Position numbers and translations under genes: made by a program. Positions 6,233-56,408 of a stretch of 64,000 nucleotides of DNA are shown in pieces. Under the pieces are notes generated by a model. It was not told where the DNA came from and ran no database searches. It worked only from the letters and a program-made list of their open reading frames with translations. The DNA comes from Cohnella algarum. GTDB taxonomy: Bacteria; Bacillota; Bacilli; Paenibacillales; Paenibacillaceae. Positions within the stretch are counted from its first letter, which is position 1; the number at the start of each line of letters is the position of its first letter. The DNA is taken from positions 5,079,001 to 5,143,000 of the forward strand of contig NZ_JAFHKM010000002.1 of assembly GCF_016937515.1 (NCBI RefSeq). The letters run 5' to 3'.

Positions 6233-6423
6233 CGCTTATTCGTATCCCCTTCGCTCAGAGGGCGTGCGCCAGTATCCGAACGGTTGAACGCCTATCCGTA
6301 TCCCCATCGTTCAGCGGGAGGTGCCCAATATTCGAACGGGTGACGCTTATCTGCATCCCCATCGTTCAGCGAAGGGGACCAATATTCAAACAGTTGACGC
6401 TTATCCGTATCCCCTTGTTTCAG
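6233..6423. repeat. About 3.5 tandem copies of a 54-56 bp repeat
   Basis: Copies begin at 6233, 6289, 6344 and 6398 (the last partial). Each starts with a block close to CGCTTATCCGTATCCCC, then TCGTTCAG, then a second block containing AATATTCGAACGGTTGA. Copies differ at several positions, so they are not a fresh duplication. The core CTTATCCGTATCCCCTTG of the last copy (6400-6417) recurs exactly, in inverted orientation, at 7756-7773 beyond the transposase-like gene. The rest of 6116-6585 holds no gene. Confidence 0.8.
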
Positions 6424-7773
6424 AACTTGCCGCTGCGCAAAAATTTTTTATATTCCATGCCTCGATCAAGCCGATTTTTCACACCTTTTCATTCCATTTA
6501 ACCCTTGAAACAAGAACGTTTGTTTGGTATATTTAAATCAGAACATTTGTTCCCGTTTGTAAAAAATGGAGGGAGCGATGAGAGCATGTTGGAGGAAGAA
6601 CTGGCTTTCGAGCAATTTTGCCGACAATTTCGCACGGAGGATCAATGCATTGCCGCCTTGTATCGCTTCAAATGGCCGAACGGATTCCGCTGTCCCAAGT
6701 GCGGTCATTCCAGCGCCTATACTATTTCTACTCGCCGTCTCCCTCTTTATCAGTGCAGATCTTGCCGCAGCCAGACTTCCCTCATCGCGGGCACGATTAT
6801 GGAAGGAAGCAAAACGGAGCTTCGGTTATGGTTTCAAGCAATTTTTCTTCATTGCCGTCCCGGCGGGATTAATGCGATGTCGCTGCGGGATATTCTTGGC
6901 GTTACATATAAAACAGCCTGGCTGATTTGCCACAAATTGCGTTTCGCGATGAGTCGGAGAGACGCGGAATTTTTGTTGAACGGAAACGTGCATATCATGA
7001 GCGCCATTTATGGCGAAAAACGGCACTTCTTCGCAACGCTAGACGAACACGAACACCCCATTATTATCGGGGCATCGATGGATTCGGAAGAGCGCGCCTT
7101 ACATTTGAAAATCAAAATTCAGCCTAAATCCGTTAACGCTTTTCGGGCCTCTCGATGGGACGAAAAACTATTTATTGACGAATATGTCGATCAAAACGCG
7201 AATTGCGTGCTTTTCACCCCCGCAAATCAAAGCGATTCCAAGAGAAATCTGAGGCGGCTGGGATGGCGTGCTGAATGTTGGCTTATGGGCCGATTCGGCA
7301 TGCTTGGCTCCAAGCACTTTCAGGCTTATCTGGATCATTTTTGCTACATGCAAAACCGAAAAACCGATACCCGCCTTGACTGCCTCTTAAAGGACTGCGC
7401 AGCCTTCAAGACCGTTACCTATCCGAAGCTTACGGGCTCTAACGCTTCTGCTCGTTATCGCAGGCTGAGGCAATTTTCGAATCAAAGGTCCAAAACCGCA
7501 ATTTAAAATCGTAACCGGGCGTTGCTTTGAACACAGCCATTACAGCCATGACTGTGCCTTTTTGCAGATTTTTACGCCTTTTGTCCCTCCCTGGCTTCGC
7601 CTTTTTTCCTCCTCATCTCAGTATCGATAAGTCCCTCTTTCCCACGAAATTAAAAGGAAGGAACTAAGGGGTATTTATGGTAATTAAAGGGGATTGAATG
7701 AGATAAATAATGAAGTTAAGGAAGTATAGAGGTAGTAAGATCGTTTTTTCTGAGTCAAGGGGATACGGATAAG
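6400..7773 (+). mobile_element. Putative relic element: transposase-like gene between 18-bp inverted repeats
   Basis: The 18-bp sequence CTTATCCGTATCCCCTTG at 6400-6417 is repeated perfectly and inverted at 7756-7773. The 1374-bp interval holds one ISXO2/IS1595-like transposase gene and is visibly richer in A+T than its surroundings. No flanking target duplication is evident. The left repeat also occurs in diverged tandem copies, so the repeats may be an intergenic repeat family rather than classical terminal repeats. The span is therefore tentative. Confidence 0.4.
6586..7506 (+). CDS. ISXO2/IS1595-like transposase family protein, catalytic residues apparently lost
   Basis: The N-terminal half matches the IS1595-type zinc-ribbon and linker: CPKCGHSS and YQCRSCRSQTS form a four-cysteine ribbon, followed by AGTIMEGSKTELRLWFQAIF and LGVTYKTAWLICHKLR. 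In this family a VEVDE-like motif supplies the first catalytic aspartate; here the aligned stretch reads NGNVHIMSAIYG with no aspartate. The later SNLK-WLLGTH region that carries the catalytic Asn/Glu reads WRAECWLMGRF. The C-terminal SKHFQAYLDHFCYMQNRK is still typical. The frame is intact (306 residues). ATG at 6586 is chosen although GGAGGG lies 11 bases away; an upstream in-frame start at 6505 is possible. Likely a domesticated or decaying transposase; this alignment was done by eye. Confidence 0.7.
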   Translation: MLEEELAFEQFCRQFRTEDQCIAALYRFKWPNGFRCPKCGHSSAYTISTRRLPLYQCRSCRSQTSLIAGTIMEGSKTELRLWFQAIFLHCRPGGINAMSLRDILGVTYKTAWLICHKLRFAMSRRDAEFLLNGNVHIMSAIYGEKRHFFATLDEHEHPIIIGASMDSEERALHLKIKIQPKSVNAFRASRWDEKLFIDEYVDQNANCVLFTPANQSDSKRNLRRLGWRAECWLMGRFGMLGSKHFQAYLDHFCYMQNRKTDTRLDCLLKDCAAFKTVTYPKLTGSNASARYRRLRQFSNQRSKTAI

Positions 7774-7883
7774 AGCATGCGAAAAGAAAATATAGCATTC
7801 GGAGGACAGCGGACGGAACGGCAAACAACGAATATTGAATGAAGAAGGACGAACAATGAACAATGAACATCGAACAAGCGAAC

Positions 7884-7932
7884 ATTAAACATTAAACATT
7901 AAACATTAAACATTAAACATTAAACATTAAAC
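7884..7932. repeat. Seven exact tandem copies of the 7-mer ATTAAAC
   Basis: Seven perfect head-to-tail ATTAAAC units fill 7884-7932, preceded by degenerate GAACAAT-like units from about 7850. It is a microsatellite-like tract in an otherwise gene-free, A+T-rich region (7507-8021). Confidence 0.95.
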
Positions 7933-31269: not shown

Positions 31270-32220
31270 CTACCGAACGGCCTGTCCGTTTTCGTCCGCC
31301 GGATGAAACACTTTGACCGGACGAAGGGAAGCTCTTTCGGCATCGGCGTCGAACAATCCGAGAAAAGCTCCGTCCTCGCGGTACAGTCGCCACAGTCCCG
31401 GCTGCTTCGGCTCCGGATCGAGCGCTTTCGCCTCGATCGTCTTCCCGTTCAGCGCGTTTCTCGCTTCGGCAAAAGAAGCCCTGGCGCTCGGAAGAAAGCC
31501 GAGCAGCCGGTCGGCCGGGATAAACTTCTCTTCCAGCGCTCCGTCCTGCTTCAGCTGCGCCATCCGTTCCAGCGTCAGGCAATCCCGCTCCGTCAGCCCG
31601 GAGCTCTCCACGCGCTTCAGCTCGGCCATGACGGCCGGCACCGCAAGCTTGCGGCCGATATCGACGCATAGCGTCCGTATATAAGTCCCTTTCGAGCAGC
31701 GAACCGAAAAGCGAACCTCCGGATGCGGTCCCGCCGCGTTCAATTCCAGCACTTCGATGCCGTGAATCGTCACGGGCCGGGCTTTGCGCTCGACCGTCAC
31801 GCCTTGCCGCGCGAGCTCGTAAAGCCGCTTGCCGTTCACCTTGACCGCCGAAACCATCGGCGGCGTCTGCTCGATGTCGCCGACGAACGACCGGATCGCC
31901 GCAACGATATCCCCTTCGGTCAGATGATGAACCTCCGCTCGTTCGACGACCTGTCCTCCGGCGTCCTCCGTATCGGTCGCGATGCCGAACCGGAGCGTCG
32001 CTTCGTACGCTTTCGGCATCTCCTGCAAATATTCCACCATCCGGGTTGCCCGTCCGACGCAAATCGGCAAAACGCCCGTTACGGCGGGATCCAGCGTGCC
32101 GGTATGCCCGATCCGCCGGACGCCGATAATGCGGCGGGCTTTGGCCACGACGTCGTGGGAGGTCCAGCCGGCGGGTTTCCAAACGCCGAGCACGCCTTCG
32201 TACGAATGGTTGCCGTTCAT
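31270..32220 (-). CDS. truB: tRNA pseudouridine(55) synthase
   Basis: Forms pseudouridine 55 in the T-loop of tRNAs. The catalytic aspartate is in GHTGTLDPAVTGVLPICVG; LGVWKPAGWTSHDVV and CSKGTYIRTLCVDIG are further signatures. A C-terminal PUA-like part is present. ATG at 32220 overlaps the nrnA stop by ATGA. 316 residues. Confidence 0.95.
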   Translation of the reverse strand: MNGNHSYEGVLGVWKPAGWTSHDVVAKARRIIGVRRIGHTGTLDPAVTGVLPICVGRATRMVEYLQEMPKAYEATLRFGIATDTEDAGGQVVERAEVHHLTEGDIVAAIRSFVGDIEQTPPMVSAVKVNGKRLYELARQGVTVERKARPVTIHGIEVLELNAAGPHPEVRFSVRCSKGTYIRTLCVDIGRKLAVPAVMAELKRVESSGLTERDCLTLERMAQLKQDGALEEKFIPADRLLGFLPSARASFAEARNALNGKTIEAKALDPEPKQPGLWRLYREDGAFLGLFDADAERASLRPVKVFHPADENGQAVR

Positions 32221-33591: not shown

Positions 33592-36396
33592 TCAAGGCTG
33601 GACAGATTCCATTACAAAGGCCTCGATCACGTCGCCGATTTGAATGTCGTTGAACTTCTCGAGCGTCAAGCCGCACTCGTAGCCTTCCGACACTTCCTTG
33701 GCGTCGTCCTTGAACCTTTTGAGCGTATCGATTTTCCCTTCGTACACGACGATTCCGCCGCGGACGAGCCGCGCTTCGGCGGTGCGGGTCACCTTGCCGT
33801 CCGTGACCATGCAGCCCGCGATCGTGCCGACCTTGCTGACCTTGAACGTTTCCCGGACTTCGGCGTGCCCGATGACCTTCTCCTTGAAGACCGGATCGAG
33901 CATTCCCTTCATGGCCTGCTCGATTTCTTCGATCACCTTGTAAATGATCCGGTGCAGGCGGACGTCGACCTTCTCTTGTTCCGCGAAGGCCGCGGCCCGC
34001 GGCTCGGGACGGACGTTGAACCCGACGACGATCGCCGACGAAGCGAGGGCGAGCGTAATGTCCGATTCGGTAATGGCGCCGACGCCGGTATGAATCGCCT
34101 TGACGCGCACGCCTTCGATCTCGATTTTCTCGAGGGAGCCTTTCAGCGCTTCGAGCGAGCCTTGCACGTCGGCCTTCAGGATGACGTTGAGATCTTTGAT
34201 CTCGCCTTCCTTGATCTTGTTGAACAAGTCATCCAGCGTAACCTTGGAGTTGGACTTGAGCGTTTCCTGGCGCGTTTTGATCGAACGCTTTTCGGCGATT
34301 TCGCGCGCCTTCCGCTCGTCCTCGAACACCATGAACGGATCGCCGGCTTGCGGCACTTCCGTGAGGCCCGTAATTTCGACCGGCGTCGACGGTCCCGCTT
34401 CCTTGACGCGTCGGCCGCGGTCGTTCGTCATCGCCCGGATGCGTCCGAACCGGTCGCCGGCAACGAACGCGTCGCCCACTTTGAGCGTTCCGTTCTGGAC
34501 GAGAATGCGGGCGATCGGGCCCTTGCCCTTGTCGAGCTCGGCTTCGAGTACCGTGCCGCGCGCGCGTTTGTCCGGATTCGCCTTGTAGTCGTTCACTTCG
34601 GCGACGAGCAAAATCATTTCCAGCAGGTTGTCGAGGTTCAGGCGCTGCTTCGCGGACACTTCGACGAAAATCGTGTCGCCGCCCCACTCTTCCTGCACGA
34701 GACCGTATTCCGTCAGTTCCGTCTTGACTTTATCCGGATTCGCGCCGGGTTTGTCGATTTTGTTGACGGCCACGATAATCGGAACGTTGGCCGCTTTGGC
34801 ATGGTTGATCGCCTCGACCGTTTGCGGCATGACGCCGTCGTCGGCCGCGACGACGAGAATCGTAATATCCGTTACCTGGGCGCCGCGGGCGCGCATCGTC
34901 GTAAACGCTTCGTGACCCGGCGTATCGAGGAACGTGATCTTCTTCCCGTTGACTTCGACTTGATAGGCGCCGATATGCTGCGTGATGCCGCCGGCTTCGC
35001 CGGAAGCGACCTTCGTCTCGCGAATGGCGTCCAGCAGCGTCGTCTTCCCGTGGTCGACGTGGCCCATGATCGTGACGACCGGCGGGCGCTCGAGCAGATC
35101 GTCCGGATCGTCGTTCTCTTCGATCGTCTCGAAGTTCGTGTCCTCCACGACGATCTTCACTTCGGTTTCGACCCCGAACTCGCTCGCGACGAGCAGCACG
35201 GTGTCGAGATCGAGATCCTGGTTGATCGTCGCCATGACGCCGAGGAAGAGCAGCTTCTTGATGACTTCCGACGCGTCCTTGTGCAGCAGCTTGGCGAGCT
35301 CGCCGACCGTCATCTCGCCGCGGACGATGATTTTTTTCGGCGTGTTGTCGATTTTTTCGCGGGGCGGCTGGTTGTTGCGGTTTTTCCCGTTTTTGCCGCC
35401 TTTGCCGCGCGATTTAAAGTTCATCCGGCCGTCGTCGAACCGTTTGCCGAAATCGTTCTCCTTGCGCTTGCCGCCGGCGCCCCCGTTGCGGTTGAAATCC
35501 TCGCGGCCTTTGCCGCCGCCCGGACGCGCGCCGCCGCGGCTGCCCGCGGGAGCCGCCGCCGCTGCCGGCGGAGCCGGAATGCGCGCGCCGAAGCCGCCGC
35601 CCGCGCCCTGCGGACGACCGCCGCCTTGACCTTGCGGGCGATTGCCGCCGCCTTGGCCTTGCGGACGGTTGCCGCCGCCCTGTCCTTGCGGGCGGTTGCC
35701 GCCTTGACCCTGCGGGCGGTCGCCGAAGCGATTGCCGCCGCCTTGCCCCTGGCCCTGCGGACGATCGCCGAAGCGATTGCCGCCCTGCCCTTGGCCCTGC
35801 GGGCGATTGCCGCCGCCCTGCCCTTGGCCTTGCGGACGGTCGCCGAAGCGGTTGCCGCCCTGCCCTTGGCCCTGCGGGCGGTCGCCGAAGCGGTTGCCGC
35901 CCTGTCCTTGACCTTGCGGACGGTCGCCGAAGCGGTTGCCGCCCTGCCCTTGGCCCTGCGGACGGTCTCCGCGGCCGCCCTGATCATGCGCGCGCTCGCC
36001 TTGCCGGCCGCCCGCGCGGTCGCCTTCCGCTTGCGGGCGCTCGCTTTGGCCGCTTTGCGCCGGCTGCGGCTGCTCCGCTTGCGGCGGCTTCGGCGCCGCC
36101 TTCACGGCAGCTCCGTCTTCCGCCTTGCGGCCGCCCGCCGGAGCGTCCGGACGAGCTCCGCCGCCGGCCGGCTTCGACTGCGCCATTTTGGCCGCCGCGT
36201 TCGCTTTAACGTCGCGGAAAAACTTCTCGACGGCGTGAACCATGTTGTCTTCCATGACGCTCATATGGTTGTTCACGGGCAGATTGACCCGCTTCAGAAT
36301 CGTTATGATTTCCTTGCTGCTCATGTTGAGCTTTTTGGCGTATTCGTATACGCGAACCTTATCCTTGTTGTCTTGCGTCTCTTGTTTATTAGTCAA
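33592..36396 (-). CDS. infB: Translation initiation factor IF-2 with a long repeat-rich N-terminus
   Basis: The GTPase that places initiator tRNA on the 30S subunit. An IF2N domain (residues 1-55, [18 protein letters not shown]) is followed by a disordered region (about 70-300) made of [18 protein letters not shown] repeats, then the GTPase core with G1 [14 protein letters not shown] near residue 445, G3 [17 protein letters not shown] and G4 VAVNKIDKP. At 934 residues it is longer than Bacillus IF-2 because of the repeats. The start is TTG at 36396, preceded by GGAGGTG and overlapping the rplGA stop by eight bases. Confidence 0.96.
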
Positions 36397-55481: not shown

Positions 55482-56297
55482 TTAATCGGCGAACGGCCGG
55501 CCCCAGCCGTAGCCGGCTTCCGGCGACACGTCCTCGGGCATGCCGGGGACGATCAGCCCGCCGTCCACCCGCAGCGTCGTTCCGGTCACGTAGGCGGCCT
55601 GCTCCGAAGCGAGCCACGCGCACGCTTCGCCGATGTCGGCCGTCGTTCCGGTCCGGCCGAGCGGAATTTTCCGGCCGATCGCCTCGTACCAGCGTCGGAC
55701 GTCTTCCCCCTCCCGGGAGGCCGTCGCCCCGGGCGCGACGCAGTTGACCCGGATGCCGTACGGCGCCAGATCGAGCGCCGCCGATTGGCTTGCCCGGGTC
55801 AGGCCCGCCTTCGTCGCGCCGTATACCGCGTCGCCCGGGTGCGCGCGCTCCGCCCGCGTCGATGTGATATTGACGATGCTTCCCCGAATGCCCCGCTCGA
55901 CCATATGCGCCGCGGCGGCCTGCATCGCCAGCAGCGGCGCCCGCAAGTTCAAATGAACGAGGCGGTCGAATTCGCCGGGGGTAAGCTTTCGCACGTCGGA
56001 AAACCGTGAAACGCCGGCGTTGTTGACGAGAACGTCGAGCCGTCCGAGCTCGCGGACCGCCTCTCCGACGAGCGCGGACGGGGCCGCCGCTTCGGTCAGA
56101 TCGCACGGCCGAACGAAGCACGTTCGGCCGAATTCGTTCCGAATCCTGGCCGCAACGGCATTCGCCTGGTCCTCTTCCCCGAAATGGCTTATCGCGATGT
56201 CGTAACCGCGCGAAGCGAACGCGAGCGCGACGCCTTTGCCGATCCCGACCGCTCCGCCCGTGACCAGCGCCGTCTTCGCCGTCTTCGATTCGTTCAT
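55482..56297 (-). CDS. SDR-family NAD(P)-dependent oxidoreductase
   Basis: A classical short-chain dehydrogenase: cofactor motif VTGGAVGIGKG, DVLVNNAGVSRF, catalytic Ser and YxxxK in NITSTRAERAHPGDAVYGATK, and the C-terminal VTGTTLRVDGGLIVPG. 271 residues. The dehydratase gene starts 26 bases after its stop. It probably oxidises or reduces the sugar or sugar acid handled by this operon. Its start is preceded by two duplicated start regions that encode mini-ORFs. Confidence 0.9.
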   Translation of the reverse strand: MNESKTAKTALVTGGAVGIGKGVALAFASRGYDIAISHFGEEDQANAVAARIRNEFGRTCFVRPCDLTEAAAPSALVGEAVRELGRLDVLVNNAGVSRFSDVRKLTPGEFDRLVHLNLRAPLLAMQAAAAHMVERGIRGSIVNITSTRAERAHPGDAVYGATKAGLTRASQSAALDLAPYGIRVNCVAPGATASREGEDVRRWYEAIGRKIPLGRTGTTADIGEACAWLASEQAAYVTGTTLRVDGGLIVPGMPEDVSPEAGYGWGRPFAD

Positions 56298-56369
56298 CCG
56301 GTCGATCCCTTCCTTTCGTTCATGCGAACGGTCCCTTCCTTTCGTTCATGCGAACGGTCCCTTCCTTTC
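56298..56369 (-). repeat. 26-bp tandem repeat carrying ribosome-binding site and start codon; two 9-codon mini-ORFs
   Basis: Units 56324-56349 and 56298-56323 (plus a partial third unit upstream) each read, on the minus strand, ATGAACGAAAGGAAGGGA and then a short tail. Each ATG opens a nine-codon frame (56349-56320 and 56323-56294) whose TGA overlaps the next ATG; the second overlaps the SDR start. The stop of one and the start of the next are thus chained. Upstream, AGCGCGCCC/GGGCGCGCT (about 56376-56398) forms a nine-base hairpin without a T run. Confidence 0.75.
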
Positions 56370-56408
56370 CTTCGCAGCGCGCCCCGCAGGGCGCGCTCCG
56401 GTTCCGCC

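Follow-up and report, generated by a model that had tools for sequence, protein, structure and literature searches.

A putative repeat-protein element on a catalytically altered IS1595-type gene in Cohnella

Introduction

Why should a transposase-like gene that seems to lack the residues for cutting DNA stand between two arms of related repeats? The locus that raises this question lies at positions 6233 to 7773 of a 64,000-nucleotide stretch of the Cohnella algarum genome (contig NZ_JAFHKM010000002.1, positions 5,079,001 to 5,143,000), called the window below. Its gene, P0001 (6586..7506, + strand), encodes a 306-amino-acid IS1595-like protein without the DDE catalytic set. Four direct copies of a short repeat lie to its left and one inverted copy to its right. 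A first-pass annotation, made from the letters of the window, likened this arrangement to that of the REP-associated tyrosine transposases (RAYTs) and their repetitive extragenic palindromes (REPs). According to the accessible parts of two papers, a RAYT gene sits between inverted repeats that recur genome-wide, protein and repeats have diverged together over the long term, inverted doublets of the repeat occur without the gene, and in some species the repeats crowd within 200 kb of it (PMC2817692, PMC3116915).

We lean, with slightly more belief than doubt, to the view that the Cohnella locus is one copy of an element resembling RAYTs and their REPINs (REP doublets forming hairpins), carried by a dead IS1595-type transposase, with the cutting chemistry coming from outside the element. 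The protein would bind the repeats, its zinc ribbon and helix-turn-helix (HTH) reading the variable 5' half, and would bring the two repeat arms together (synapsis). DNA damage would free the gene from LexA repression. The element and gene-less arrays would spread through the protein's recognition of their ends, and strand cutting and joining would fall to another nuclease or transposase, or to host repair of DNA during the SOS response.

The question is important because this would be a second RAYT-REPIN-like pair, made with an unrelated protein that has no DNA-cutting residues. It would split end recognition from chemistry, two functions usually joined in a transposase. It makes testable how repeats spread without catalysis of their own, why this would be linked with DNA damage, and by what path a DNA-binding code between a protein and a variable half-site evolves; for such a code, nature offers dozens of protein-repeat pairs to study. 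In some genomes of these soil bacteria and their relatives the element has multiplied although it apparently carries no DNA-cutting function of its own, so how it spreads is a concrete question. A literature search, with preprints and most subscription journals outside its coverage, returned no description of such an IS1595-like protein-repeat pair, and RAYT-REPIN was the sole comparable pair that it found.

Results and Discussion

The left arm of the locus holds repeat copies at 6235..6258, 6291..6314, 6346..6369 and 6400..6423 (all + strand), with starts 56, 55 and 54 nucleotides apart; the right arm holds one at 7750..7773 (- strand). The arms oppose each other, their CAG ends toward the gene. 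An 18-bp core in four direct copies and one inverted copy had been proposed. The copies are real (a 22-nucleotide version at up to three mismatches has five matches in the window, whereas 100 shuffles gave none, mean 0.00 and maximum 0), but the conserved unit is about 24 nucleotides long, not 18. The claim of a perfect inverted copy across the gene holds for a 15-mer that is perfect at both 6400 and 7759. Within the 24-nucleotide unit, the 3' half TATCCC..TTCGCTCAG is common genome-wide, whereas the 5' half CTTATCCG is specific to the window's type of locus. Three of the copies in the window have folding energies of 0 to -0.2 kcal/mol, so that there is no palindrome, which rules out a palindromic REP; the repeat alignment shows no GT(A/G)G head.

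Could such repeats be due to chance, or to passive tandem duplication beside a decayed transposase? The left array is indeed a diverged tandem repeat (Tandem Repeats Finder reports 6233-6414, period 56, 81% matches). Yet repeat enrichment, orientation, co-divergence and association with the gene all lie far above their controls, given here and below. The shuffle, orientation, co-divergence and gene-association controls refute chance or tandem slippage, and we give this explanation practically no weight.

If the repeats belong to an element, they should not be confined to one locus. The host genome (G000, 6.2 Mb, Cohnella group) has eight sites of the original 15-mer at 0-1 mismatch, all inside 88 kb (4.998-5.087 Mb). 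Allowing two mismatches adds ten sites, mostly scattered, against four for the reversed control. The 3' core TATCCC[CG]TTCGCTCAG, at up to one mismatch, has 56 sites against none for the reversed control; the further repeats sought by a check set beforehand are thus present. Core repeats occur in all 37 genomes of the genus (8-105 copies, median 39; reversed pattern 0-2 per genome), as does the gene.

Some sites of the host genome have peculiarities of their own. An isolated one-mismatch core match, TATCCCCTTCGGTCAG, lies at window positions 31908-31923 (G000:C2:5110908). Single repeats near both contig ends (G000:C2:20358 and 6193562) agree in their 5' half and in the bases after it, perhaps as parts of a duplicated stretch. 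Gene-less clusters seem sparser from about 2.1 to 4.4 Mb along the contig, which is 6.19 Mb long.

Are the repeats arranged in the same way at other copies of the gene? We examined 63 loci from 29 of the 37 genus genomes, the host's own included, counting repeats with up to three mismatches within 650 bp upstream and 800 bp downstream. The loci, like those from other genera below, were hand-picked from among the listed best matches; 18 of them come from one genome, G023, a bias answered in part by the tests on 36 representatives described below. Of 245 flanking copies, 244 point inward. Repeats stand on both sides of the gene at 51 loci. Twelve loci miss one side; ten of these belong to G023, and their left repeats have diverged further but can still be made out by eye. 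Outside the genus, 20 loci from five other genera (14 of them from two genomes of one genus) were scanned at up to four mismatches, a setting that gives a few out-of-place matches (two in L152): 18 have repeats on both sides, one on the left only, and one has none found. We also looked at five loci in three further families of the order, and inverted TATCCC..TCAG repeats flank three of them.

The repeats also occur in pairs of arms without a gene between them. In the examined stretches of the host genome, with the gene loci and one gene-fragment locus set aside, we counted 22 gene-less clusters with 68 copies; three-mismatch matches without TCAG were dropped, and sites 5110908 and 5985970 were left out. 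Nine clusters are two-sided, and all nine run + then - (chance given composition, 8e-10). Twelve of the 13 one-sided clusters are single copies. The gene-less arms are arrays of 1-10 copies, and two of the two-sided arrays fold into hairpins better than shuffled sequence (z -5.6 and -2.9). Inward doublets with hairpin potential recall REPINs. Gene-less inverted-repeat units related to a gene-bearing element likewise recall miniature inverted-repeat transposable elements (MITEs), a name given to RUP and Correia elements in the accessible part of one paper (PMC2817692). Unlike MITEs, the Cohnella units have arrays as arms and a related protein that is itself without the catalytic set.

Does each protein have repeats of its own? 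The 9-nucleotide 5' halves left and right of the same gene differ by a mean of 3.0 positions; when right sides are reassigned among loci the mean is 5.5 and the minimum 4.6 (10000 permutations, 36 representatives below 80% protein identity). Repeat distance also tracks protein distance (Mantel r 0.71, a value reached in 0 of 5000 permutations). Common descent of protein and flank would account for part of this, so that the co-divergence shows a stable pair, not binding. Within the host genome, repeats related to those of the window flank two paralogues of P0001 on both sides but carry another 5' half. Beside one paralogue (L028 2937-3053), a GCCAGTTGACTCG-like tandem unit of 13 bases occurs in seven overlapping copies, which look like an expanded 3' half of that paralogue's flanking repeat.

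The repeats also follow the gene from genome to genome, as a second check set beforehand had asked. The family is represented by 295 genomes in 19 genera, and the gene is found at E <= 1e-25 in 93 of these genomes. Outside the genus, at least four core repeats occur in 32 of 56 gene-positive genomes but in only 2 of 202 gene-negative ones (Fisher 2.6e-23). One exception is G051, with 12 copies in an 89% complete genome that has no gene even at 1e-20; the other is G199, with four copies. At least one core match occurs in 82 gene-negative genomes, mostly one or two.

What kind of protein goes with these repeats? The sole Pfam match of P0001 above its cut-off is Zn_ribbon_IS1595 (53.3 bits against 25.4), and its best NCBIfam model is IS1595, below cut-off. 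The zinc-ribbon part (residues 17-63; 6634..6774, + strand) has the invariant cysteines C36, C39, C57 and C60. The protein keeps an HTH-like part as well, and a confident structural model predicts an RNase H-like fold without the catalytic set at residues 132-270 (6979..7395, + strand). The catalytic domain PF12762 (DDE_Tnp_IS1595) gives no match in P0001, and some relatives match its C-terminal part. The closest relative found outside the host genome belongs to C. laeviribosi. A search of solved structures by sequence gave no credible match (best E 0.73), and Foldseek none at E 0.001 or better.

The locus could be an ordinary self-moving IS1595-type element with multi-repeat ends and MITE-like derivatives, its catalytic centre merely diverged beyond alignment. 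Tn7-like ends likewise have multiple repeats. Against this, in an alignment of five DDE-type IS1595 proteins both aspartates and the lysine are preserved, whereas both aspartates are found in 0 of 82 family members and the lysine in 0 of 82. The stretch from the first aspartate to the third position is shorter in the family (median 89) than in the nearest DDE-type proteins (104). No invariant acidic residue stands in as a substitute in residues 128-262 of 120 aligned sequences. (L111, which has an early stop, was excluded from protein counts and from the substitution ratios below.) To these points is added the lack of a clean 8-bp target duplication, described below, and we regard the self-moving element as unlikely. 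The first-pass annotation was right to call P0001 a catalytically altered gene of the ISXO2-type zinc-ribbon kind: the protein is of the IS1595/ISXO2 type and apparently unable to cut DNA alone.

Perhaps a related transposase in the same genome acts in its place. Of 12 genomes searched for PF12762, hand-chosen mostly for many copies or repeats (G003 has few), seven have no match (G018, G020, G010, G003, G248, G252 and G284). G023 has one match over nearly the full domain, and G007 and G027 have partial ones. In G009 and G028 the matches start at profile position 86 or later and so take in just the C-terminal part; three of four sites in G028 and two of five in G009 coincide with family genes. 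Action in trans by a DDE-type IS1595 protein of the same genome thus finds no support as a general rule, a result that applies to PF12762, other kinds of transposase not having been searched. The host genome has a decayed DDE-type IS1595 copy at G000:C2:2985428-2986213, with two matches, one with two in-frame TGA codons. L158 and L168 are DDE-type IS1595 copies on short contigs.

When would such a gene be expressed? A sigma-70-like promoter, TTGAAA-17-TATATT, lies at 6505..6533 (+ strand; 10/12 match), although promoter-like matches overall are near chance (three found, 2.3 expected). Between its hexamers is a LexA-like box with one mismatch, GAACGTTTGTTT (6514..6525, + strand), and just downstream a perfect one, GAACATTTGTTC (6541..6552, + strand). 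The region upstream of the host lexA gene has three boxes of this kind, one with a 12-mer identical to the second box of the window. A GAACNNNNGTTC-like box with up to one mismatch lies within 100 bp upstream of the gene at 62 of the 63 genus loci, whereas 200 mononucleotide shuffles give a mean of 1.7 and a maximum of 5, and 100-base windows inside the gene give 0-6. The box is perfect at 41 of the 63 loci, and 40 have two boxes. Other genera have a box within 150 bp at 20 of 20 loci, and other families have one at five of five in a 400-base span around the frame start. From these boxes we infer that LexA puts the gene under DNA-damage (SOS) control.

A dead catalytic centre and LexA-like boxes would also suit a quite different protein: a domesticated, SOS-induced DNA-binding regulator, or a repair or nucleoid factor, with the repeats as its binding sites and the arrays acting on neighbouring genes or on chromosome structure. 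Its presence in other families of the order would fit this role, as would the long RNA hairpins that two gene-less arrays would form (z -5.6, -2.9). The repeats of each locus type, on the other hand, diverge with their own protein. Copy number speaks against it too. The gene had been thought single-copy, which it is not, for the host genome has two more full-length paralogues (47-48% identical to P0001), a fragment and a decayed copy. G023 has 26 gene matches, and 16 of its copies, all of one type, have about 90% of their sequence in common; G248, G252 and G284 have 44, 35 and 37 matches at E <= 1e-20. Median ratios of nonsynonymous to synonymous substitution between copies are 0.23, 0.22 and 0.10 in three genomes (15, 12 and 4 copies; highest pair 0.99). 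The protein has thus stayed under purifying selection while the copies multiplied, which suggests that the copies that persist or multiply are those with a working protein.

The element is also absent at orthologous sites of relatives. The flanks of two G248 copies, L138 and L140, were sought in 40 genomes, and 12 places were compared. None of seven other genomes has the element at the L138 site. In G252 the flanks (91-92% identical) join directly, with about four shared bases in a T-run that follows a terminator-like hairpin. At this same terminator-like site G284 has a 457-458-base insert without repeats (L199 871-1327), and the spacers of five more distant genomes are short and diverged. 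The L140 site holds the element in one of five genomes, G284; there G252 has 29 unrelated bases, and the spacers of three more distant genomes are short. Presence of the element thus varies by site, through transposition or recombination. Many copies, paired divergence and absence from sites argue for a multiplying element, not a single host regulator, and we consider domestication very unlikely.

Rho-independent terminators were noted beside several copies by a crude, uncontrolled detector. Two paralogous loci, L028 and L029, are near-identical from the ribosome-binding site through the gene but have diverged promoters and a mosaic downstream part, a pattern that suggests gene conversion between paralogous elements.

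Our preferred reading, a repeat-protein element on a dead transposase, must be weighed against several observations that do not favour it. The usual target duplication of the IS1595 family is 8 bp, according to the accessible part of one paper (PMC8101967), and neither filled/empty pair (L138 and L140 sites) shows a clean one. Element ends vary and gave nothing clean among 16 G023 and 12 G248 copies, or among 14 printed G248/G284 copies. Mosaic exchange between copies could mimic transposition. Fewer than four core repeats are found in 24 of the 56 gene-positive genomes of other genera, six of which have none, although the search pattern was a Cohnella-type core and genera with other repeat versions may be undercounted. 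One of the 20 loci from other genera (at up to four mismatches) and two of the five from other families have no such repeat. Finally, the first aspartate survives in 19 of 82 family members (15 from one genome) and the second in 2 of 82; with single aspartates surviving in part of the family, some branches may have descended from active ancestors and lost catalysis recently.

How far does the likeness to RAYTs and REPs go? Inverted flanks, genome-wide over-representation, co-divergence, gene-less inverted doublets and crowding near the gene are all found in the Cohnella element. The analogy drawn by the first-pass annotation therefore stands for inverted flanks, co-divergence, extra copies elsewhere and clustering near the cognate gene, but fails in that the repeats are not palindromes and the gene is a multi-copy family. 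The features that we find most telling go beyond that annotation: the LexA-like boxes, the absence of the catalytic residues from all members checked, and the gene-less arrays with two inward-facing arms. RAYT proteins are of the HUH/Y1 class (IS200/IS605 type), whereas the Cohnella protein is of the IS1595/DDE type with its catalytic residues lost. The Cohnella repeat lacks both palindrome and GT(A/G)G head, its gene has LexA-like boxes, and its core has 8-105 matches per genome where REPs usually number more than 100. Non-palindromic repeats are by definition not REPs.

From the IS1595 family (ISXO2 type) the element keeps the zinc ribbon, the HTH-like part, a C-terminal KHLQxYL motif and the RNase H-like fold. 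It differs in lacking the catalytic D, D and K, in having many end repeats instead of one pair of terminal inverted repeats, and in showing no clean 8-bp target duplication in two filled/empty comparisons. The insertion sequence common region (ISCR) elements offer another parallel, since the accessible part of one paper describes SOS-promoted expression of their transposase (PMC13393415). On that partial account, both have a transposase-type gene under SOS influence, to which LexA-like boxes point in the Cohnella element. The ISCR transposase is unrelated to the IS1595-like protein and is thought active. The Cohnella element is no RAYT and its repeats do not qualify as REPs; as far as its catalytic domain goes, it has also ceased to be an IS1595 element. 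Judged from sequence comparison, the most economical reading would be a system like RAYT-REPIN that arose independently on an IS1595-type protein, with repeat binding of its own and borrowed chemistry. A bolder form of this reading, which we offer tentatively and doubt somewhat more than we believe, is that an SOS-switched pseudotransposase recognises its own two-armed arrays, so that gene and gene-less arrays multiply throughout the order with catalysis wholly borrowed from the host or from unrelated elements, each copy having its own protein-repeat code.

Other features of the window

Upstream of the locus lies the 5' end of a minus-strand gene, which from its translation we take to encode an nth-type endonuclease-like protein, and on the downstream side is a minus-strand gene of 903 amino acids, its 3' end toward the locus. 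Just beyond the right arm, at 7881-7932, the heptamer AACATTA is repeated 7.4 times without error. Other tandem arrays of the window lie at 35530-35971 (units of about 20-117 bases) and 56289-56373 (unit of 26 bases).
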